Assembly (NCBI GenBank): GCA_024653355.1
Contig: JANLFQ010000002.1
Span: 124,001 to 188,000, forward strand
Source: a candidate division WOR-3 bacterium
GTDB taxonomy: Bacteria > Hydrothermota > Tepidihabitantia > Tepidihabitantales > Tepidihabitantaceae
Reading direction: 5' to 3'
Length of the DNA stretch: 64,000 bases
Part shown: positions 5,028-44,293 of the stretch, piece by piece
Layout: each line of letters begins with the position of its first letter
Numbering within the stretch: the stretch's first letter is position 1
The notes under the pieces: generated by a model
The model's database searches: none
Told to the model about the DNA's origin: nothing
Seen by the model: only the letters and a program-made list of their open reading frames with translations
Translations under genes and position numbers: made by a program

Positions 5028-5339
5028 CAGTTGCCCCAAAAGCCCTATCAGGTTGAAAACGCCCCCGCCATAATATCCCAATAACTATTCACCCAACCAC
5101 TCAGGGAACCGTTCCCTGAACGACTCAGAAAACAGCTCGGTGAACCCTTTTCGACGCGGTTTTCTGCTTAAATTTCATTATGATACCTCAATATGACCCC
5201 TTTTGTCATCTCGGTTTACCTTTTGGGCTTTTCACCGCAACCCAATTGGTCATTTATCCGGCAAAGGCGTTATCGTTTGGTTGGTCTCTTCAGGTGTGAG
5301 GAGACCGCCGCGCTCCGCTATTCTGCCCGGTTTCCGGGC
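5028..5339. other. Intergenic stretch without a gene
   Basis: About 310 bp between the carbonic-anhydrase-like gene and the lamin-tail promoter. It holds a perfect inverted repeat at 5101-5119 and a second weaker one near 5281-5306 (GGTCTC...GAGACC, no T-run). I see no convincing small gene or RNA. Confidence 0.5.
5101..5119. promoter_or_regulatory. Perfect 9-bp inverted repeat, operator-like
   Basis: TCAGGGAAC-C-GTTCCCTGA, a 19-bp near-palindrome with a single central base. It lies about 75 bp upstream of the lamin-tail -35 box. The 1-nt loop rules out a hairpin terminator, so a dimeric regulator site is the more natural reading. Confidence 0.35.
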
Positions 5340-5723
5340 TCACTGCACTAAATGCACCTGCCATTTTTCATCCACCCATAGTTTAACAATTCGGGTGTTG
5401 AATCCCCAGGACTTAACTACCTCCTCTGCCTGGTTTAACTGGTCTAACTGTACCGTTTTGTCTGCCGGATTGCCTGCGCAGTCAAAGTGCGCCACAAGGG
5501 CGACTATCTTCGCCCCGTGCTTTTCGACCGATATCGCCACCCGCCTTTTAATCGACTCAATCGTAGCATAATCCCGATTTTCCGCAACGATTTTGTTCGG
5601 ACCGGGTTCGGTCACCGCATCAACATAATCGAGCCCGAACTTCTTTTTAAGAAAATCAATCACCGGCAGTTGTACCCTGCCGTCCATACAGTTGATCGCA
5701 ACACCAAAAGTTTTCTGGTCCAT
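5340..5723 (-). CDS. Mini beta-carbonic-anhydrase-like protein
   Basis: A 127-residue protein carrying the complete beta-carbonic anhydrase metal signature: Cys12-x-Asp14-x-Arg16 in NCMDGRVQ and His79-x-x-Cys82 in AHFDCAGNP. These are the residues that bind zinc and form the Asp-Arg dyad in beta-class enzymes. It is much shorter than usual beta enzymes (roughly 165-220 residues), lacking the N-terminal arm and most C-terminal helices. It starts 8 nt after glnA stops and has only a weak ribosome site (CCGGACA), so it is probably translated from the glnA transcript. Either CO2/bicarbonate chemistry or a non-catalytic metal-binding role is possible. Confidence 0.72.
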   Translation of the reverse strand: MDQKTFGVAINCMDGRVQLPVIDFLKKKFGLDYVDAVTEPGPNKIVAENRDYATIESIKRRVAISVEKHGAKIVALVAHFDCAGNPADKTVQLDQLNQAEEVVKSWGFNTRIVKLWVDEKWQVHLVQ

Positions 5724-5731
5724 TGTCCGGT

Positions 5732-7051
5732 TTACAGTATCGGCAGATACCGTTTTATCTCAAACTCGGTTACCTGCGCCTTGTACTCGTCCCACTCCTG
5801 ACGCTTGTTGCGCAAAAAGAAGGTAAACAGCTCATCACCCAGTGTTGACCGTACCAGCTCACTCTTCTCGGTCAACCTTATCGCCTCGGAAAGGTCTTTG
5901 GGCAGGCAGGCGATTCTTGCCTGGGCACGTTCCTCTTCGGTCATCCGATAGATGTTGTCGGTGGTTGGTGGTGCGAGCGGCATCTTTTCTTCCACCCCTT
6001 TGAGTCCGGCGGCAAATATCACCGCAAACGCCAGATAGGGGTTGCATGCCGGGTCCGGTGAACGGTACTCAATCCGTGCCGCCTCAGGCCGGGTTGGAGA
6101 AAACGCCGGCACCCGCACCAGGGCGCTGCGATTGACCCTTGCCCAGGACACATAGACCGGTGCCTCAAATCCGGGCACGAGCCTTTTGTAAGAGTTGACC
6201 CATTGATTGGTGATTGCGGTTATCTCCGGCGCATACTTGAGCACACCGGCGATGAAATGCCGGCAGATGGGCGAGAGGTTCATATCGTCTTTTGCCGAAT
6301 AAAAAGCGTTTCTGCCGTTACGGAAAAGAGAGATGTGGGTGTGCATCCCGGAACCGTTTACCCCGAAAATCGGCTTGGGCATAAAGGTGCAGTGGATGTT
6401 GTGCCGCTTTGCCACCTGCCGGGCAACAAACCGGCAGGTGACCACATTGTCTGCCATCGTCAAAGCATCGGTGTAGTGCAGGTCAATCTCGTGCTGGCTC
6501 GGTGACACCTCGTGATGGCTGTACTCGACCCCGACACCCAGTTTCTCCAGGGCAACAATCGTCTCCTCGCGCACCTTTTCCGGTAATGAGGTGGGCGTCA
6601 GGTCAAAATATCCGCCGCGGTCCAGCAAACTTGGTTCCTCACCGTTCTGAAAGTAAAAGCATTCCAGTTCGCAGCCGGCATAAAGGGAAAAACCCATTTT
6701 TTTTGCCTTGTTCACAACCCGGCGCAGTACCTGCCGGGGGTCAAATTCCACCGGTTTGCCATCGGGTGTGTACACATCACAGAACATCCTTGCCGCCCTT
6801 TCGCCCTGCACCTCCCAGGGCAGAACCGCAAAACTGCCCGGGTCAGGCTTGACAACCATATCCGACTCCTCAATCCGGGCAAACCCTTCAATCGATGAGC
6901 CGTCAAAACCCAGCCCGTGCCCCAGCGCTCGCGCCAGTTCCCGGGGGGAGATGGTAATCCCTTTGAGAAACCCTAAAACATCGGTAAACCACAACTGGAC
7001 ATAGCGTACCTGGCTTTTCTTTATCTTACTCATCACTTCAATCGCACCCAA
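5732..7051 (-). CDS. glnA: Type I glutamine synthetase
   Basis: Makes glutamine from glutamate, ammonia and ATP in the cytoplasm. Motifs in order: LGFDGSSIEGF, the ATP/metal-site motif NGSGMHTH, KRLVPGFEAPVYVSW, and RIEYRSPDPACNPYLAFA. The length (439 residues) and IYRMTEEE region fit the GSI-alpha subtype without a clear adenylylation motif. The frame is open to 7141, but the promoter at 7086-7113 lies inside that extension. I choose the TTG at 7049-7051, 5 nt behind GGGAGG; it reads (M)GAIEVMSKIKKSQV and aligns with usual GSI starts. Followed by the carbonic-anhydrase-like gene in the same operon; divergent from the PEGA gene. Confidence 0.95.
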   Translation of the reverse strand: MGAIEVMSKIKKSQVRYVQLWFTDVLGFLKGITISPRELARALGHGLGFDGSSIEGFARIEESDMVVKPDPGSFAVLPWEVQGERAARMFCDVYTPDGKPVEFDPRQVLRRVVNKAKKMGFSLYAGCELECFYFQNGEEPSLLDRGGYFDLTPTSLPEKVREETIVALEKLGVGVEYSHHEVSPSQHEIDLHYTDALTMADNVVTCRFVARQVAKRHNIHCTFMPKPIFGVNGSGMHTHISLFRNGRNAFYSAKDDMNLSPICRHFIAGVLKYAPEITAITNQWVNSYKRLVPGFEAPVYVSWARVNRSALVRVPAFSPTRPEAARIEYRSPDPACNPYLAFAVIFAAGLKGVEEKMPLAPPTTDNIYRMTEEERAQARIACLPKDLSEAIRLTEKSELVRSTLGDELFTFFLRNKRQEWDEYKAQVTEFEIKRYLPIL

Positions 7052-29819: not shown

Positions 29820-29892
29820 TGGGCCGTGCAGGATTCGAACCTGCGGCCACCGGGTTAAAAACCAGGTGCTCTGCCTGCTGAGCTAACGGCCC
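29820..29892 (-). tRNA. tRNA-Lys(UUU)
   Basis: Full cloverleaf on the minus strand: acceptor GGGCCGT/ACGGCCC, D arm GCTCAGCAGGCAGAGC, TTC arm GCAGGTTCGAATCCTGC. Anticodon TTT in loop TTTTTAA. The anticodon stem CCTGG/CCCGG has one U-C mismatch. No encoded CCA. Confidence 0.93.
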
Positions 29893-29910
29893 AAAACTTT
29901 TCCGGCAAGG

Positions 29911-29996
29911 TGCCGGAGGCCGGAGTCGAACCGGCACGACCCAAACGGGTCAAGGGATTTTAAGTCCCTTGCGTCTGCCTATTCCGCCACCCCGGC
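29911..29996 (-). tRNA. tRNA-Leu(UAA)
   Basis: Class II tRNA with a long variable arm (GACCCGTTTGGGTC). Acceptor GCCGGGG/CTCCGGC, anticodon TAA in loop CTTAAAA. Minus strand. Confidence 0.95.
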
Positions 29997-30007
29997 AAAC
30001 AGCCCAA

Positions 30008-30079
30008 AGGCGGCACGGGGATTTGCACCCCGGAATTGCGGTTTTGCAGACCGCTGCCTTGCTACTTGGCTATGCCGCC
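30008..30079 (-). tRNA. tRNA-Cys(GCA)
   Basis: Acceptor GGCGGCA/TGCCGCC, anticodon stem GCGGT/ACCGC with loop CTGCAAA (anticodon GCA), discriminator U as expected for Cys. Minus strand. Confidence 0.95.
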
Positions 30080-30087
30080 AGAAAAAA

Positions 30088-30160
30088 AGCGGGAGACGGG
30101 ATTTGAACCCGCGACCCCCACCTTGGCAAGGTGATGCTCTACCAGCTGAGCTACTCCCGC
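30088..30160 (-). tRNA. tRNA-Gly(GCC)
   Basis: Acceptor GCGGGAG/CTCCCGC, D arm GCTCAGCTGGTAGAGC, anticodon loop TTGCCAA (GCC), T arm GCGGGTTCGAATCCCGT, discriminator U. Minus strand. Confidence 0.96.
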
Positions 30161-30179
30161 ACTCAAACCCAAAACCATA

Positions 30180-30252
30180 TGGCCCCAACCGGAGTCGAAC
30201 CGGTGCCTTCACCTTGAAAGAGTGATGTCCTAAACCGCTAGACGATGGGGCC
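30180..30252 (-). tRNA. tRNA-Glu(UUC)
   Basis: Acceptor GGCCCCA/TGGGGCC, anticodon loop CTTTCAA (TTC), T arm ACCGGTTCGACTCCGGT. First gene of the five-tRNA cluster (Glu-Gly-Cys-Leu-Lys in transcription order). Confidence 0.95.
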
Positions 30253-34429: not shown

Positions 34430-35803
34430 CTATTGGGGACGAAAGTATTTGTCAAGGTACGCTTCGCGCACCCGTTTCAGCTCGGCACGGGGAAACATCG
34501 CCAAAAGTTCCCAGCCCAGATTTAGCGTCTGTTCGATCGTCCGGTTCTCGTACTCACCCTGGGCGATGTACCGTTCCTCAAAAACCTGGGCAAATTTAAG
34601 ATAAACCCGGTCCGCTTCCGAAAGGGCGGCTTCGCCTAAAATCACCTGCAACTCCTCTGCCTCCTTGCCCCGGGCATAGCAGGCATAAAGTTGATTGAAA
34701 AGGTCGGCGTGGTCTTCGCGCGTTTTACCGGCACCAATACCCTTGTCTTTCAGTCGGGACAGGGATGGTAAAACATCAATCGGTGGGGCAATGCCCTTGT
34801 GGTGCAGAGCCCTTGACAGAATTATCTGCCCTTCGGTGATGTAACCGGTAAGGTCAGGAATCGGATGGGTTTTGTCATCTTCGGGCATCGTCAAAATCGG
34901 CATCATCGTAATCGAACCTTCGCGGCCCTTAATCCGGCCACACCGTTCGTAGATTGATGCCAGGTCGGTGTAGAGATAACCCGGGTAGCCGCGGCGCCCG
35001 GGAATCTCTTTGCGCGCCGCCGATATCTCGCGCAACGCCTCGCAGTAATTGGTCATATCGGTTAAAATTACCAGGACATGCATCCCGAGGTCAAACGCCA
35101 GATATTCCGCCGCGGTCAGCGCCGTGCGCGGGGTTGCAATCCGCTCAATCGCCGGTTCGTTTGCCAAATTAAGAAAGAGAACCGTCCGTTCGATGGCGCC
35201 CGATGCGGTGAAACTCTGGATAAAGAAGTCCGCCTCTTCAAAGGTTATGCCCATCGCGGCAAACACCACCGCAAACGACTCTTCCCTGCCCAGCACCCGT
35301 GCCTGGCGGGCAATCTGGGCAGCAAGCCGGTTGTGCGGCAAACCGGTGCCCGAAAAAATCGGCAGTTTCTGACCCCGGACCAGGGTGTTCAAACCATCAA
35401 TCGCCGAGATTCCGGTCTGAATAAACTCGTTTGGATACTCTCGGGAGTAGGGGTTAATTGGTGCGCCGTTGATGTCGGCACGCTTCTGGGGAATCAATCG
35501 TGGTCCGCCATCGCGCGGCTCTCCTAAACCATCGAAAACCCGGCCCAGCATATCCTCGGCAAGCGCCAGTTCAATCCCGCGCGCAAGAAATCGCACCTTC
35601 GCCCGCGGGACATCAATCCCGCTTGTGCCCTCAAAGACCTGGATGAGCGCCCGGTCCTCTTCGGCTTCCAAAACCTCACCCCGCCGCCTCTCGCCATTGG
35701 GTAGGGTGATTTCAACCAGTTCCGCATACTTGACACCAGCAACCCCTTCGACGACCATCAAAGGTCCGGCAATTGAGTGCACAGTTTGAAACTCTTTAAT
35801 CAT
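34430..35803 (-). CDS. atpB: V/A-type ATP synthase subunit B
   Basis: Regulatory non-catalytic nucleotide-binding subunit of the V1/A1 head. The 457 residues match subunit B throughout: [29 protein letters not shown] in place of a Walker A loop, [18 protein letters not shown] and [12 protein letters not shown]. Overlaps subunit A by 8 bp. Last V-ATPase gene here; subunit D, which often follows, is absent. Confidence 0.97.
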
Positions 35804-37574
35804 AATTTTTGCTCAATCCGTTTATTTCCGCCTCCAGCTGCCGGTGCAGGGCGTTAAGCGCCGATTCAAACTCCTCTTCGGGAATAAACTTCATGCGGGC
35901 GATTCGCTCGCGCACCGGTAGTTTCTCAATCTGGTCTATCTCTGCCCCGCGGTTCAAAGCCTCGCGGGTTAAGGCGTAAAACTTCAGTATCACCGCCAGC
36001 ATTGCTGCCTGCTTTTTTAGCGAGGTGTAGGTGTCGATCTCGTGGAAGGCGTTCTGGTGGAGGAAATCTTCGCGTAAGGAGCGGGCAACCTCCAACACCA
36101 GCCGGTCTTCGGCCGAAAGGGTGTCCTTGCCCACGAGCCGAACAATCTCCTCCAGTTCTGCCTCCTTTTGCAGTAGCGCCATCGCCTGCCGGGCATGCTC
36201 GGGAAAATCGGGCTGGGTTTTTTGCGCCATTGCCGCGGCAACAACATCGGTATAAAGTGAATAAGAACGCAACCAGGAAATGGCGGGGAAGTGCCGCTGG
36301 AATGCCAGTTTGTCTTCGAGAGACCAGAACACCTTGACAACCCGTAATGTTGCCTGCACTACCGGGTCGTTAAGGTCGCCGCCAGGAGGCGAAACCGAAC
36401 CAATAACCGTCAGAGAACCCGCCATCTCTTTTCCCTGATACCTTCCCAGACAAATGACCCGTCCGGCACGCTCGTAAAACTCGGCGATGCGGGTCGCCAG
36501 GTATGCCGGATACCCCTCTTCACCGGGCATCTCCTCAAGTCGTCCGGAAATCTCCCGCATCGCTTCTGCCCAGCGTGAGGTTGAATCGGCCTGAAGTGCC
36601 ACCGAATAACCCATATCACGAAAGTATTCACCAATCGTGATTGCGGTGTAAACCGAGGCTTCCCGTGCTGCCACCGGCATATTTGAGGTGTTGGCAATGA
36701 GCACCGTCCGTTTCATCAACGGTTCGCCGCTCTTCGGGTCCTTCAGTTTGGGAAACTCCAAAAGGACATCGGTCATTTCGTTGCCCCGCTCCCCACAGCC
36801 AACAAAAATCACAATATCGGCATCAGACCATTCCGCAAACTGGTGCTGGATGACCGTTTTGCCGGAACCAAAAGGCCCGGGCACACAGGCGGTGCCACCT
36901 TTCGCAATCGGGAAGAATGTGTCGATAATCCGCTGGCCGGTCAAGAGCGGTTCATCAGGTGCCAGACGGCGCCGCACCGGTCGGGGCTGGCGCACTGGCC
37001 AGCGCTGAACCATCGTTAACCTTTGCTCTCCGGTCTCGGTTTCTAAAACCGCCACCGTGTCGGTGACGCAAAAATCACCTTCCGCGATTTCCCGCACCCT
37101 ACCCTGAACTCCGGGCGGGACTAAAATCCGGTGTTTAACCAGAACGGTCTCGGCAACTTCACCAATAACATCGCCCGGACCGACCGTGTCTCCTTTCTGG
37201 CTCAGGGGAACAAAATGCCATTTCCGCTCTCGGGAAAGAGCTGGTACCTCAATACCCCGGGTGATAAAATAGCCCGCCTTCTCCTCAAGCAGGTGTAAAG
37301 GTCGCTGGACACCATCATAGATGGTCTCCAGAAGCCCGGGACCCAGTTCCACTGAAAGCGGCTCATAAGTTGGGTAAACCGGTTCCCCCGGACCGATGCC
37401 GGCGGTCTCTTCATAAACCTGAATCGCCGCTTCGTCGCCGCGCAGTTGGATAATTTCGCCCAACAACCGCTTTTCTGAAACCCGTACCACATCGTACATC
37501 TTCGAGCCCGCCATACCCCGGGCAACAACGAGCGGTCCGGAGACCCGAATGATGGTACCTGTTACCTCACTCAT
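35796..37574 (-). CDS. atpA: V/A-type ATP synthase subunit A
   Basis: Catalytic subunit of the V1/A1 head, 592 residues. It has the Walker A motif GPFGSGKT near residue 235, the subunit-A-specific insertion at about residues 110-190 (the non-homologous region), and [19 protein letters not shown] typical of the A subunit. Overlaps subunit F upstream and subunit B downstream by 8 bp each. Confidence 0.98.
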
Positions 37575-37908
37575 AACTCTCCCCCGCCTTCACATCAAGC
37601 ACATCGGCACCGCAGGCACGGCGCACCGCGGCGCGCAAACGCGTCTCCCCGGCATCGCTACCGGTAAACGGCAATGCCACTAAACAGGGCAGCGCGGAAT
37701 TGTGGAACTTTTCAATTAGCGGTTGTAAAATTTCGGTAAGGTCGTCGGTAAAAAATACCAACTGGTAGCCGGTGTTAATCAAACTCTGGACAAGTTCAAC
37801 CGGGTCGGTACCGGGCTCAACCGGAAACACATCAAGCCCGACGCCCCGGAATGGCGTCACCACCGCGCCCGGTCCAACAACCGCAACCCGTCCCGCATCA
37901 GAATCCAT
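37567..37908 (-). CDS. atpF: V/A-type ATP synthase subunit F
   Basis: Small central-stalk subunit, 113 residues, with the family start RVAVVGPGAVVTPFRGVGLD and the FFTDDLTEIL core. Position between C and A genes supports the call. Overlaps both neighbours. Confidence 0.88.
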   Translation of the reverse strand: MDSDAGRVAVVGPGAVVTPFRGVGLDVFPVEPGTDPVELVQSLINTGYQLVFFTDDLTEILQPLIEKFHNSALPCLVALPFTGSDAGETRLRAAVRRACGADVLDVKAGESYE

Positions 37909-38926
37909 AAACCACCACCTCTTGACACTGTTTCATATCCCAGCCCGCAAGTTTTGCCGCATAAATCTGCCGCAGATTGGTCAACTCGTTTTCCCGCAAC
38001 AAAAAGAAGCGCCACAGCGGTTCGTAGCCAAGGGCAATATAGCGGGCGCAGTTGATGTAGTCAAGCAAAAGTTGTCGTATCATCTTCTCAATTGGCAGCA
38101 AACTCTCTCCCGCCTCCTGTGCTTGCCTCCCCGCCAAGAGTATCGCACCATAATGCGGCGCGAGCGTCACACCTTTCCCCGCGCCCGACTCCGATTCGTA
38201 AGCCCGTTGCAGATTTTGCCGGCTAATTTCCCCTCCCGGCAAAAAGGCGGCTTCTAATGTTGCAACAGTCTCGTTTAAAACCTTGAGCCGTATTAAGGTC
38301 CTGATGTTCATCAGGTCGGCATAAAGCCGGAAGTAACCGTAGGCAAAGTCGTTACCCGCTGCCAAAGTCAGCGCCTGTTCCTGCTCCAGTTTATCAAGCA
38401 AAAGGTCAATCATTGATGGATCCTGCTTCGCGCGCGCCAGGCGCAGCGCTTCCTGGGCGCGACGGTGGGCTAAGACCAGGACATTCTGTTCTGTGAACGG
38501 CCGTTTTAGTTCGGTCGCGGTTATTGCGTTGAGCTCGTTCAGACCCCACTGACCACCGAACAACAAATCCTCGGCAGCGGTACTTTTTTCCTGATAACGG
38601 TTTTTCAAAATCACCTTGAGATTAAAGATATCGGCTTGATTTCCGATAAGCGCCTTTAACCACGGTTCCGCTGCATATGTTTTACAGAACCGGATGTTTT
38701 CCTGGTGAGCGGTGGTAAAAATCTGGGTTGGTTCTGTGTTCTCTTTGACAAATTGACCGTAACGGGTTTCACTAAGCGCTGCGAGGAAATCTTCAACTCC
38801 GTTTGCCTTCAACAGTCGCTCATACTGACTTCGGTCCAGAAGCGATGTTTCTTGTGCACGCACCCTGCCATTGGCAAACCCGTAGTTGGGATTTTCGCTC
38901 CAGCGTATCTGGCAAAATGTTCTCAC
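37898..38926 (-). CDS. atpC: V/A-type ATP synthase subunit C
   Basis: The subunit that sockets the central stalk on the membrane ring (AC39/d-like). 342 residues, with NPNYGFANGRVRAQETSLL at the N-terminus and the repeated three-fold helical pattern including NLKVILKNRYQ and LMNIRTLIRLK. GTG start 9 nt behind a TTGACT-16-TATATT promoter, so the operon starts here: C-F-A-B. Subunits E, I and K, which usually precede C, are not adjacent. Confidence 0.9.
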   Translation of the reverse strand: MRTFCQIRWSENPNYGFANGRVRAQETSLLDRSQYERLLKANGVEDFLAALSETRYGQFVKENTEPTQIFTTAHQENIRFCKTYAAEPWLKALIGNQADIFNLKVILKNRYQEKSTAAEDLLFGGQWGLNELNAITATELKRPFTEQNVLVLAHRRAQEALRLARAKQDPSMIDLLLDKLEQEQALTLAAGNDFAYGYFRLYADLMNIRTLIRLKVLNETVATLEAAFLPGGEISRQNLQRAYESESGAGKGVTLAPHYGAILLAGRQAQEAGESLLPIEKMIRQLLLDYINCARYIALGYEPLWRFFLLRENELTNLRQIYAAKLAGWDMKQCQEVVVYGF

Positions 38927-39313: not shown

Positions 39314-40648
39314 TCAGTGGTTGTTTATAAGACGGGAAATTCGTTCAATCTGGCTGGCAAACAATGGGTCGCGGGATTTCAAGGTGTTAATTTTTTCTAT
39401 TGCATGCATCACCGTTGTGTGGTCTTTACCACCAAAATGAAAGCCAATATCCTTTAATGAAAGGTTTAACACATTACGCATTAAGTACATCGCAACCTGC
39501 CGGGCAAGCGCAACCCTTTTTGTTCGGGAAGTGCCCTTCAACTCCTGCACTGGAACCTGAAAATGCTCGGCAACCTGGTTGATGACCCGCATTGGGTCCA
39601 ATGGGTCGTCGTGCTGGATTAAATCTTTTATTGCCGCTTCAGCCAGTTCCGCGTTTACCGGCCGACCGGTTAGTGAATGCATCGCTATCAAACGTACCAG
39701 CGAGGCTTCAAGGGTGCGGATGTTAGAGCGCACCCGGTTGGCGATGTAACAGGCAATCTCTTCACTTAACTCAAAATTTTCCTGTTTTGCCCTCTGGAGT
39801 AATATGGCGACCCGGGTTTCCAGTTCAGGGGGTTGAATGTCGACCACAAGACCGCTTCCTAAACGGGAAATCAACCTTTCCTGAAGGGTCGGGATATCTT
39901 TCGGTGGTCGGTCGCTGGTAAAAACCACCTGACTCCCGGCGTCCTGGAGGGCATTGAAGGTGTAAAATATCTCTTCTTGCAGGCTTTCCTTACCGACGAG
40001 ATAGTGCACATCATCCAGAAGGAGCAAATCCAACCCCCGGTACTTTTCTTTGAACTCCAGCCGGGTGTTTTTCTCAATCGCCTGAATCAACTCCAGAAAC
40101 AGCACTTCCGCCGGCGTATAACAGAGTCTTAAACCAGGATGGGATGTTAGGGCGGCATTGCCAATCGCCTGAATTAGATGGGTTTTACCCAGACCGACAC
40201 CACCATAAATGAAAAGCGGGTTGAAAACCTTACCGAGGTTTTGTGCCACATTACGCGCCGCTGCCCAGGCAAGCCGGTTACTTTCACCTACGATAAAAGT
40301 TTCAAAGGTATAACGGCTCTTTAACTTAAACTGCGAAGCATTATTAAGGGTGGAATGTGCCGAAACCGTTGGCTGGGGCTTAACAACGGGATGGACTTTA
40401 CCATCAGCCGGAACCAGAAACTCAACCTGCAAATCCCTGCCGGTTACCGCTTTGAGCGCACTGGCAATCTCGTTCCTGTAGTGGTGCTGTAGCCAGTCGG
40501 CAAAAAAGTTGTTCGGGACCGCAACCTGCACGGTTCCGTTCACCATATTAAAAACACGGGTAGGCGCAAGCCAGGTTTGGAAAGCCTGCGGATTCACCCT
40601 GAGTTTCAGCAACTCCAGTACTTCAACCCAGACCTGCTCGCCATTCAT
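39314..40648 (-). CDS. dnaA: Chromosomal replication initiator DnaA
   Basis: Initiator ATPase, 444 residues. Domain I at the N-terminus (QVWVEVLELLKLRVNPQAFQ), then the AAA+ domain from about residue 105 (YTFETFIVGESNRLAWAA) with Walker A GGVGLGKTH and Walker B LLLLDDVHYLVG. The C-terminal DNA-binding domain carries the signature FGGKDHTTVMHAIEKI. dnaN is not adjacent. Two DnaA boxes lie in its leader, fitting autoregulation and an origin nearby. Confidence 0.98.
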   Translation of the reverse strand: MNGEQVWVEVLELLKLRVNPQAFQTWLAPTRVFNMVNGTVQVAVPNNFFADWLQHHYRNEIASALKAVTGRDLQVEFLVPADGKVHPVVKPQPTVSAHSTLNNASQFKLKSRYTFETFIVGESNRLAWAAARNVAQNLGKVFNPLFIYGGVGLGKTHLIQAIGNAALTSHPGLRLCYTPAEVLFLELIQAIEKNTRLEFKEKYRGLDLLLLDDVHYLVGKESLQEEIFYTFNALQDAGSQVVFTSDRPPKDIPTLQERLISRLGSGLVVDIQPPELETRVAILLQRAKQENFELSEEIACYIANRVRSNIRTLEASLVRLIAMHSLTGRPVNAELAEAAIKDLIQHDDPLDPMRVINQVAEHFQVPVQELKGTSRTKRVALARQVAMYLMRNVLNLSLKDIGFHFGGKDHTTVMHAIEKINTLKSRDPLFASQIERISRLINNH

Positions 40649-40683
40649 AAACCTGCTTCACTTACCACAAAGTTTAGCCCGAC

Positions 40684-40704
40684 TTTTCCACAAGTTTTTC
40701 CACA
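40684..40704. promoter_or_regulatory. Two tandem DnaA boxes upstream of dnaA
   Basis: TTTTCCACA at 40684-40692 and again at 40696-40704, each one base from the TTATCCACA consensus, in the same orientation with a 12-bp period. Located 36-56 bp upstream of the dnaA ATG. Confidence 0.7.
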
Positions 40705-40759
40705 TAAATATGTGTAGTAAGTGTCGTATAATAAAATAGATATAAAATAATGAATAACT

Positions 40760-40768
40760 CTGTCCACA
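40760..40768. promoter_or_regulatory. Third DnaA-box-like sequence
   Basis: CTGTCCACA, in the same orientation as the pair at 40684-40704, with an AT-rich stretch of about 55 bp between (TAATAAAATAGATATAAAAT). Confidence 0.4.
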
Positions 40769-40847
40769 GTTGTCCGCCTTTTATTTTAAACCGGCATTGA
40801 TAATAGAGTAAATATACCCGATGTCAATAAATGATGTTCAGGTTTTG

Positions 40848-43109
40848 TTAAGAAATCGGCACAACCACCTGACCGATGGCAACGCCACCATCGTTGAGCG
40901 GAACCGCCTCATTGTGATAAACCTTTATGCCCCTTCGGCTGAGAAGTTTTACCAACCCCTCACGGAGCAAACGGTTTTGCATACTGCCACCTGATAGGCA
41001 CACCTGATTAATACGGTAATTTTTTGTTAAATCTGTCAGCATCTCAGCCAAGCCATTTACCAGGGCGAGATGAAAACCAAGTGCTATCTGGGGCGATGGT
41101 ATTCGAGAAAGGGTTTGCGCCACGACCCAGCGTAGGATTGGCAGCGGGTCGAGTTCAGCGGAAAACGGTGGCGGTTTAACCGTTAACTTGCCCGCATCAA
41201 CCGCCGCCTTTTCCAGGGCGATTGCCGCTTCACCCTCAAAAGTTGCCCGGCGGCAGATACCGGTAATTGCGGCAACCGCATCGAACAGCCGACCCAGACT
41301 TGATGTTACATAGGGCAAATCCTGCTCTCCCCTATTCGGCGTTAAGCCGAGGGCACGAACTTCCGAACGCGTTACACCCGCCTGTTCGCAGTAGGCAAGG
41401 GCAACCTTTACCGGGTCAGCAATCATACCACCGCCAGCATTGTGCCTTAGATAGCCGAGATGAGCCAGCCGCTTCCAGGAAAGGTCTGGTTGCACAAGAA
41501 CCGTTTCACAACCCCAGATTGCGCCGTCAACGCCGTACCCGGTGCCATCACATGCCAAGCCAATCACCGGTGGAGTTAAATTGTGCTCGACAATTACCGA
41601 AAGTATGTGGGCATAATGGTGCTGGACCCGATACAATTCAGCGCCCCACCTTCTACTCAACCTTTCTGCCAGCCGGGTTGAACTGTAATCCGGATGGAGG
41701 TCGCACACCACCCTTTGAGGGTGAATACCCGTCCAATCGATGAGCCGCTCCAGCGTTTGCAAGAAAAACTGTTCGTTGCCGATAGAGTTCAGGTCGCCGA
41801 TGTGCGGGCTTAAAAAAAGTTTATCACCTTGGGCAAGACAGAAGGCGTTCCGGCCATCACCACCCACCCCAAGGGTTGGATGTTTCACGTGAAACATTTT
41901 ACCGAGTGCGATGTGCTGGGGCGCATAGCCGCGCGCCCGGCGCACCATTATCGCCTTCTTTTTTTCAACGAGCACCACCGAGTCGTCGCAACGGTTGGCG
42001 ATTTCCCGATTGTGGGTCACGGTGTAGTGAAAAACCCTTTTTAGGTTGTTCTTTAGTTCTTCGTCGGTGCAAACAATCGGCTCATCGCTCCTGTTGGCGC
42101 TCGTCATCACCAGAACTGCCGGTTTGCCGGTAATCTGGCGCAGGGTGTAAAAAAGCAGGGTGTGGAGCGGTGTATAGGCCACCATTACGCCCACATAAGG
42201 GTTTTCTGGTGCGACAAGGGGAGAGAGCTGGATTTTTGGGTTGGGCAATTTTGGTGCTAAAACAATCGGCGCCCGGGGTGATTTCAGGGTTTGGAGAGCA
42301 AACCTATTCAGTTGACAGAAAAGGCGGGCGACATTGGCATTTTCCACCATAACCGCAAAAGGTTTGCCCGAGCGTTCCTTGCGCATCCGCAATGTTTTAA
42401 CCGCCCGGTCTGATGTTGCGTCACAGGCGAGGTGAAACCCGCCCAGCCCCTTTATTGCCACCACATTTCCCTTGATGAGCGCCTTTGCGGCGCCAATTAA
42501 CGGTTCTTGGGACAGTTCTGTGCCGTGTTTATCAAATAGGGTTAAAGAGGGGCCACATACCGGACAGGCGAGCGGTTCCGCATGGAAGCGGCGGTTCAGC
42601 GGATCACGGTACTCAGCGGCGCAGTTCGGGCACAGGCTGAATTGGTGCATCGTGGTCCTTTCCCGGTCATAAGGCAGGTTCAGGATTATGGTGTATCTTG
42701 GGCCACATTGGGTGCAGTTTATGAAAGGGTAGTGGAAACGCCGGTCACCAAATGAGAAAAGTTCTTTTTTACATTCATCACACAGGGCGATGTCAGGTAA
42801 GACAAAAGCCCCCAATTCTTTCGATTTTACATCGCTATGGGCGATGGTGAAATTTTCGTAACACCTTGATTTTTTGTATGATACGATAAAGGATTCAATA
42901 ACCGCCAGGGGAGGGGGTGCAGTGCGGAGCTGGGCGATGAACTTTTTTAGATTCGCGCCTTGGGCGACAATTTTTACACCCGCCTTGGTGTTGGCAACGA
43001 TGCCTTTAATACTCAGTTTCTGGGCAAGACGGTAAACAAAAGGGCGAAATCCGATACCTTGGACCTGTCCCGTGATTGTGATGTGGGCGGTTTTTATGCG
43101 GGGTGGCAT
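40848..43109 (-). CDS. hypF: Carbamoyltransferase HypF
   Basis: Builds the cyano ligands of [NiFe] hydrogenases from carbamoyl phosphate. 753 residues with all modules: acylphosphatase domain (QVQGIGFRPFVYRLA), two zinc fingers at about 105-190 (CDECKKELF, CTQCGPRYT, CPNCAAEY, CPVCGPS), YrdC-like domain (KGLGGFHLACDA) and Kae1-like carbamoyltransferase domain (HHYAHILSVI, ACDGTGYGVDG, LSGGSMQN). No other hyp or hydrogenase gene is in the window. Codons 405-410 (MFHVKH) contain a perfect parS site. It ends 199 bp from the dnaA start. Confidence 0.97.
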   Translation of the reverse strand: MPPRIKTAHITITGQVQGIGFRPFVYRLAQKLSIKGIVANTKAGVKIVAQGANLKKFIAQLRTAPPPLAVIESFIVSYKKSRCYENFTIAHSDVKSKELGAFVLPDIALCDECKKELFSFGDRRFHYPFINCTQCGPRYTIILNLPYDRERTTMHQFSLCPNCAAEYRDPLNRRFHAEPLACPVCGPSLTLFDKHGTELSQEPLIGAAKALIKGNVVAIKGLGGFHLACDATSDRAVKTLRMRKERSGKPFAVMVENANVARLFCQLNRFALQTLKSPRAPIVLAPKLPNPKIQLSPLVAPENPYVGVMVAYTPLHTLLFYTLRQITGKPAVLVMTSANRSDEPIVCTDEELKNNLKRVFHYTVTHNREIANRCDDSVVLVEKKKAIMVRRARGYAPQHIALGKMFHVKHPTLGVGGDGRNAFCLAQGDKLFLSPHIGDLNSIGNEQFFLQTLERLIDWTGIHPQRVVCDLHPDYSSTRLAERLSRRWGAELYRVQHHYAHILSVIVEHNLTPPVIGLACDGTGYGVDGAIWGCETVLVQPDLSWKRLAHLGYLRHNAGGGMIADPVKVALAYCEQAGVTRSEVRALGLTPNRGEQDLPYVTSSLGRLFDAVAAITGICRRATFEGEAAIALEKAAVDAGKLTVKPPPFSAELDPLPILRWVVAQTLSRIPSPQIALGFHLALVNGLAEMLTDLTKNYRINQVCLSGGSMQNRLLREGLVKLLSRRGIKVYHNEAVPLNDGGVAIGQVVVPIS
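41881..41896. other. parS: parS centromere site inside hypF
   Basis: TGTTTCACGTGAAACA, a 16-bp perfect palindrome identical to the widespread ParB-binding consensus. It lies within the linker between the YrdC-like and Kae1-like domains of HypF and 1.2 kb from the dnaA start codon. Confidence 0.92.
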
Positions 43110-43147: not shown

Positions 43148-44293
43148 TTATACTTGCTTTACCTCTTGTTCCGCAGGCTCGATAATCTCCTCTTCGTCTT
43201 CTGGTGTTTCAAGGATGTTTTTGTCGTCTTTCTTTCTTATGATGATGGCGAGAGAGACAACTGTGCCGGTAAACCATACGGAAAGTCCGTAGCCCAGGAC
43301 CATAAATGCGATCGCATAGCCGCACATACCGAGGAGAATAGAGCCGATGCCATTACTCCAAACTGGATTAGCCCAGTAAGATGGCGAATACACCTGAGGT
43401 AAGCCATAAAGGTTGGCTTCAAAAACAAACATCTGGTGCAGGGGAGAAAACACGCCCCAGTTCGGTAGCGAAATTTTGAATATAAATTCCGCGCCGCTGA
43501 GCATTTCTGCCCACCGTTCGCCCATAAAGGTGCTTAACACCAGAGAGCCGATTCTGCCGGCAAGGCTGGAGCCGAGCCCCAATAAAAAGGAGCCGAATTT
43601 GGCAAGCGCGGCAACAAGGAATGTGTACCAGATTAAACGGGCGGGCTGTTCATTGACACAGGAGAAAACCTCAAACAGCGTGTCAAAGGTGTCGTTGCCC
43701 ATTGCCCCAACAACGCCGGGGGCAAATAAGAGGGTGAACAAGAGTACGATGAGGAGGTAGACGATGAACAGCGCAGCGAAAAAGCCAACGATTGAAAGCA
43801 GCCCGGTGAATATCGGTCCGAAATGGGGGATGGCACCGAGCGCACTGAGGACAAGTCCAGCAACGACGATGAGGGCGATAATGGCGATTATCAAAAGCGG
43901 GCTTGATATCAGTGCCCGGATGTTCTTTAAGGCGTATTGAAACCCGGAACCAGCCTCAAAAAATTCGTTACCCCGCAACTGTTCATAGGCGACCTTGGCA
44001 ACCGCGGCGCCGGTGACCAGCATCACGACTAAAAACCAGACGACGCCCGCACCGTAAATCACCCAGGAAAACCAGGGAAAGGGTAGGTTCGGGTTGGGGA
44101 AAGGTAGCAACCGCTGTGTTTCCCAGATTGATAACCAGTCGTTACCCGCGGCGATGTGGGCGATGTAGGCGAGCAGAGAGTATCCGGCAAATGCGAACAA
44201 AAGCCCCATCATCACCATTCCGACCTTTTTGGCGGAGAACCCCAGCCGCAAAGTACGGAAGATGTCTTTGTAATTAAAATTCAAGCCGGTCAT
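43148..44293 (-). CDS. Polytopic membrane protein of unknown function
   Basis: A 381-residue integral membrane protein with about seven or eight hydrophobic segments, for example VGMVMMGLLFAFAGYSLLAY (about 25-45), WVIYGAGVVWFLVVMLVTG, PLLIIAIIALIVVAGLVLS, VGFFAALFIVYLLIVLLFTL and CGYAIAFMVLGYGLSVWFTG. The C-terminus is cytoplasmic and very acidic (ETPEDEEEIIEPAEQEVKQ). An aligned ribosome site GGGAGG precedes the ATG. It follows the 42-residue membrane protein gene by 15 nt and probably shares its promoter. I do not recognise a family. Confidence 0.8.
   Translation of the reverse strand: MTGLNFNYKDIFRTLRLGFSAKKVGMVMMGLLFAFAGYSLLAYIAHIAAGNDWLSIWETQRLLPFPNPNLPFPWFSWVIYGAGVVWFLVVMLVTGAAVAKVAYEQLRGNEFFEAGSGFQYALKNIRALISSPLLIIAIIALIVVAGLVLSALGAIPHFGPIFTGLLSIVGFFAALFIVYLLIVLLFTLLFAPGVVGAMGNDTFDTLFEVFSCVNEQPARLIWYTFLVAALAKFGSFLLGLGSSLAGRIGSLVLSTFMGERWAEMLSGAEFIFKISLPNWGVFSPLHQMFVFEANLYGLPQVYSPSYWANPVWSNGIGSILLGMCGYAIAFMVLGYGLSVWFTGTVVSLAIIIRKKDDKNILETPEDEEEIIEPAEQEVKQV

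Follow-up and report, generated by a model that had tools for sequence, protein, structure and literature searches.

A probable single parS centromere within the hypF coding sequence of a candidate division WOR-3 bacterium

The 16-mer TGTTTCACGTGAAACA, located inside the hypF coding sequence in a 64,000-nucleotide stretch of DNA (the window) from a candidate division WOR-3 bacterium, is very probably the chromosome's apparently single parS centromere, serving a canonical ParABS system. An earlier note on this DNA had read the site as a ParABS centromere within hypF, and the sequence comparisons described below support that reading. The exact site, its uniqueness, its position at the origin, the parA and parB genes, its conserved position, the constraint at the DNA level and the other placements in hypF were computed directly; from these we infer ParB binding, clamp spreading and a role in segregation at the hypF site.

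A motif scan located TGTTTCACGTGAAACA exactly at window positions 41881-41896 (no strand assigned), as a perfect palindrome that is identical to the ParB-binding consensus, as had been claimed, and that belongs by exact match to the 16-bp class of parS sites of the TGTTNCACGTGNAACA kind. Within the window it is the sole match at up to three mismatches, a tolerance at which shuffled sequence gave a mean of 0.39 matches. The earlier note had proposed a search for further copies; none was found at up to two mismatches in the whole assembly (1,881,290 bases in six contigs, 98% complete), in which the hypF site is the only match. A three-mismatch stretch on the same contig (C2:306772) was considered as a further parS and was not convincing. 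An exact 16-mer is expected by chance about 4e-4 times per genome, by arithmetic that assumes equal base frequencies, and far more rarely within 1.3 kb of dnaA. The site is 1233 bp from the dnaA start (40648), in agreement with the 1.2 kb given previously, and, at C2:165881-165896, it is followed after 83 bp by the cumulative G-C minimum of its 358,789-base contig (C2:165979, window 41979). Both distances are those of an origin-proximal chromosomal parS, and because the contig-wide skew minimum, which we read as the origin, falls so close to it, parS is likely located at the chromosome's replication origin.

The host gene (40848-43109, minus strand) encodes a 753-residue carbamoyltransferase HypF that scores 726 bits against TIGR00143, above the equivalog cut-off of 466, and has Pfam matches to the acylphosphatase, zinc-finger (zf-HYPF), YrdC-like (residues 210-391) and Kae1-like HypF_C (residues 409-508) domains of this class. 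parS encodes residues 405-410 (MFHVKH), which lie between the YrdC-like and HypF_C domains and extend over two residues at the start of HypF_C as delimited by Pfam; the earlier placement of MFHVKH in a linker between two HypF domains is thus borne out. HypD is likewise encoded in the source genome. On one side of hypF lies dnaA (39314-40648, minus strand; 444 aa; 499 bits against TIGR00362, cut-off 343.9). The intervening gap (40649-40847, no strand assigned) is a candidate part of the origin: the DnaA box consensus is TTATCCACA, and a scan of the gap that allowed one mismatch to it detected two DnaA-box-like TTTTCCACA sequences, at 40684 and 40696. The other edge of the hypF slot is formed by a gene for a 381-aa membrane protein without a Pfam match (43148-44293, minus strand), which in relatives adjoins hypF or dnaA. 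Directly downstream of dnaA, V-type ATPase subunit genes (35796-38926) replace the usual dnaN, as they also do in genome G026 of family f4, and five consecutive tRNA genes occupy the minus strand at 29820-30252.

The ParABS system that the earlier note had implied, in a claim that depended on the genome having parB, was found. A single ParB (TIGR00180, 189 bits) is encoded at C2:302315, 136 kb from parS, in one operon with parA, which overlaps the parB start. The 260-aa ParA contains a KGGVGKTT stretch and an AAA_31 match, in keeping with a cognate Walker ATPase beside parB. ParB has ParB_N, HTH_ParB and ParB_C matches, a GERR motif, and parS-type R and G at the residues by which ParB and Noc are told apart, the roles of these residues being taken from the available text of PMC7383237. 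R and G occupy these positions in 21 of 21 aligned ParBs, drawn from the 58 genomes with a ParB match, instead of the Q173 and R201 of Noc proteins, and the source ParB scores 226 bits against the Noc model TIGR04285, below its cut-off of 315. Across the class, ParB was detected in 58 of 65 genomes (57 above cut-off), including all 42 with completeness of 90% or more and contamination of 5% or less; 39 of these 42 have parS, and the other three carry a variant form found in family f3 and described below. The distance of parA-parB from parS and dnaA, which reaches 908 kb in genome G003, is unlike the usual origin-proximal par operon.

In the family of the source genome (f1; 18 genomes, source included), parS was found at up to one mismatch in every genome, at one place in 14 and at two in 4, and one such site shares its HypF alignment column and reading frame across all 18, among proteins of 46-86% pairwise identity. 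The earlier note had made its case depend on close relatives keeping the site, and all of them do. Five f1 sites have one mismatch, which is confined to the outermost base. In 16 of 18 genomes the site and a neighbouring dnaA share a contig; of the two exceptions, the G009 contig stops inside hypF and G003 lacks a DnaA match. G003 is a single 3.26-Mb contig, 89% complete, that keeps parS with one mismatch (locus G003:C1:586000-602000) in a HypF shortened to 629 aa, whose match ends at residue 573; this oddity may be an origin rearrangement or an assembly fault.

The codons of the site separate constraint on DNA from constraint on protein. The comparison took HypF columns represented in no fewer than 16 of the 18 f1 genomes (HypF is partial or shortened in G002, G003 and G009); in 158 of these columns the amino acid is degenerate and never changes. 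The parS codons TTT CAC GTG AAA make up the only four columns that use a single codon throughout, with no synonymous change in any of the 18 genomes, as compared with 0 of the other 154 columns, in which the commonest codon has a mean share of 0.59. The odds that four single-codon columns would fall at random on exactly the parS codons are about 1 in 25 million, by arithmetic that ignores kinship among the genomes. The residue before FHVK is M, V or L (T, P or W in left-edge mismatches) and the residue after it is H or Q (R in right-edge mismatches), so that the edges vary just as the palindrome permits. The codon pattern therefore argues that selection is acting on the parS DNA and not on the peptide, and it amounts to the DNA-level conservation in relatives that marks a chromosomal ParABS system.

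The linker itself had been described as probably free to vary, and comparison with 80 outgroup HypFs agrees: four of the five columns 406-410 (406-408 and 410) reach the 90th entropy percentile or higher, with 409 at the 74th, and residues 404-405 are absent in 79 of the 80. Neither FHVK nor VSRET, the peptide read from parS in another family (see below), was found in any of the 80 proteins, and parS was absent at up to two mismatches from all 80 outgroup hypF loci; dnaA, the membrane-protein gene, parA and parB were likewise absent from the stretches examined at these loci.

These comparisons bear on other explanations of the site. If the FHVK peptide worked in HypF, the palindrome would be a by-product of protein conservation, and the invariance of FHVK in 18 f1 HypFs would fit such a role. 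The four invariant codons among 154 columns without a counterpart, the edge residues that follow the palindrome, and a site in family f2 that lies at another place and in another frame all speak against it; we consider a peptide role ruled out by the codon test together with the missing FHVK or VSRET in 80 of 80 outgroup HypFs, and its probability is very small. A chance match is excluded by uniqueness, position and family-wide conservation. The 16-mer might instead bind another protein, for example a Noc-type factor, and the ParB does give a score with the Noc model, at a level below the cut-off; the parS-type R and G in 21 of 21 aligned ParBs, not the Noc-type Q and R, rule out a Noc site, and either of these two explanations, chance or another binding protein, is hardly credible.

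An improbable, if less remote, explanation is that ParB binds here as a regulator which tunes hypF or dnaA transcription, with segregation secondary. dnaA is only 1.2 kb away, and ParB at parS can change nearby expression in other bacteria, according to the available portion of PMC7022226. Such a site, however, would leave ParABS without another centromere, as it is the sole parS found in the genome, and in families f9 and f10 the lone site adjoins other genes, so that a role at dnaA or hypF would not be general. Two observations count against the centromere itself: parA and parB are not adjacent to the site, and G003 combines a shortened hypF with no DnaA, which may be an assembly fault.

With the site read as a centromere, ParB would load at the single hypF parS, close as a CTP-dependent clamp, and slide or spread over flanking hypF and the dnaA/origin region, and ParA would then move the ParB complex, separating sister origins. 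The place taken by the site would be an inter-domain linker of HypF that is hypervariable and tolerates indels, and parS would be inside hypF because hypF fills the slot beside dnaA in this lineage. Transcription of hypF would pass through the site, as with intragenic parS elsewhere, and could hinder ParB.

Relatives of the source family place the site elsewhere. In f2, a non-sister family of the same order, all four genomes with hypF have parS in a loop of the YrdC domain, at residues 325-327 (353 in G022, which is longer), where it is read as NVSRET or NVSHET and differs from the f1 site in both place and frame; nothing of the f1 site is visible in f2, nor of the f2 site in f1. In locus L184 of f2 (G018:C59), a gene with a carbamate-kinase-like start, as judged from its translation, lies at 5307-6278, two genes from hypF; HypF uses carbamoyl phosphate. 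Genus g6, within f1, has a second site at a third place, near HypF residues 658-685 and in the frame V(S/A)RET, that is exact in G015 and has one mismatch in G012-G014, two in G010 and three in G011 (by alignment). The f1 linker and the f2 loop are indel-tolerant among the outgroups; the third place is not, and it is the richest in mismatches.

Where a family has no full hypF, its parS is intergenic and lies beside dnaA. Two sites lie between the membrane-protein gene and dnaA in f4 (G026), and in f5 (G027) one lies beside dnaA and another 3.4 kb farther. In f3 the form TGTTCCACGTGGAACA is present once in each of three genomes, in the gap between dnaA and the membrane-protein gene (L201-L203), and was not found within one mismatch in any of the 25 other genomes of the order. 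HypD is absent from f3 (3/3) and f5 (1/1) and was matched in f4 (1/1, 82% complete), f2 (5/5) and f1 (15/18). ParB position 204 is K rather than R in f3 alone (3 of 21 aligned ParBs, all f3; L204-L206), and in Caulobacter this residue contacts parS, according to the text available of PMC7383237. A new ParB-parS pair was considered for f3 and rejected, since parS of form TGTTCCACGTGGAACA has already been published for Myxococcus xanthus, as the accessible part of PMC7022226 records. A co-change of TGTTCCACGTGGAACA and R204K is possible, and we claim only that the two coincide in the sequences compared.

Farther out, the slot of outgroup family f6 reads membrane protein-hypF-dnaA, and parS lies outside hypF, beyond the membrane protein, in the three of three regions that have all three genes. 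The single parS of f9 and f10 adjoins a 224-aa gene that comes after a dnaE-like gene, as seen at each of the 20 loci tested (L147-L166; the names dnaE and thioredoxin at these loci are a reading of protein starts); in single-contig genomes it is far from dnaA, with about 600 kb between them in the case of G059. Class-wide, the site was detected at up to one mismatch in 57 of 65 genomes, as compared with 1 of 65 for the reversed control, and the five genomes without any form of the site are 53-89% complete.

Because f6 has hypF beside dnaA and parS outside it, hypF was probably in the slot first and parS entered afterwards; with parS inside hypF in f1 and f2, the claim that a centromere was recruited into a coding region is supported. 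The IQ-TREE phylogeny recovers f1 as monophyletic (UFboot 100) and places f2 together with f3 and f5 (99). The placement of f4 has a value of 74 and differs by tree where support is weak: FastTree on DnaA puts it next to f1, and IQ-TREE puts it with f2, f3 and f5 (UFboot 60-74). The DnaA tree omits G003 and G009 (no or fragmentary DnaA) and G020 (89% complete, with no match for DnaA, a full HypF or parS), three of the eight f6 genomes enter the tree and the HypF alignment, and the concatenation includes ParB and the membrane protein for some tips only.

Two or more entries of parS into hypF are the simplest reading of these sequences. We think it reasonably probable that the sole centromere entered hypF at least twice independently, in the inter-domain linker of f1 and the YrdC-domain loop of f2 and in different frames, with a second site at a third place in one genus; that an intergenic centromere accompanies the loss of the hydrogenase maturation genes; and that hypF is a recurrent host because it lies beside dnaA. 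Alternatively, a single entry of parS in the order's ancestor may have been followed by relocation within hypF, to the linker in f1 and the YrdC loop in f2. The host gene is indeed common to f1 and f2, and genus g6 provides an example of a hypF with two sites at once. This history nevertheless seems doubtful, as f2 groups with f3 and f5, which are without hypF and have intergenic sites, and neither f1 nor f2 retains a trace of the other's site.

The locus provides a clean natural case in which a DNA element and a protein share bases, and in which the codon signature isolates selection at the DNA level. A lone centromere can persist inside a gene across the depth of a bacterial family, and at different places in relatives. 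Two questions can be put to the test with this locus: what kinds of protein loop are able to accommodate a centromere, and in what way a sole parS within a gene withstands being transcribed. Literature searches found no paper combining hypF, parS and ParB and no relevant paper on synonymous or coding parS; Livny et al. 2007, reportedly a survey of parS sites, was outside the coverage.

In Bacillus subtilis some parS sites lie in genes, one of them in spo0J itself. The B. subtilis Soj/Spo0J system has the same consensus, TGTTNCACGTGAAACA, and ten parS, eight of them in the ori domain, as compared with one here (available portion of PMC7022226). Pseudomonas aeruginosa has ParA, ParB and palindromic parS near oriC, as here, and differs in having ten parS, four of them near oriC, instead of a single site; nine of its ten sites are probably within coding sequences, so that intragenic parS itself is not new (PMC4368675, as far as its accessible text goes). 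In repABC plasmids sites also lie in coding sequences and have been proposed to be positively selected, and these systems are unlike the present one in being plasmids or chromids with another consensus and multiple sites near repABC (PMC9040568, in the part available). Xanthomonas campestris has one parS per chromosome, as here (PMC7333895, in the text at hand). What is new is the combination of a sole site, one gene, differing positions in relatives and codon-level evidence, and it is unusual for separate lineages to have a lone centromere at differing places of one gene.
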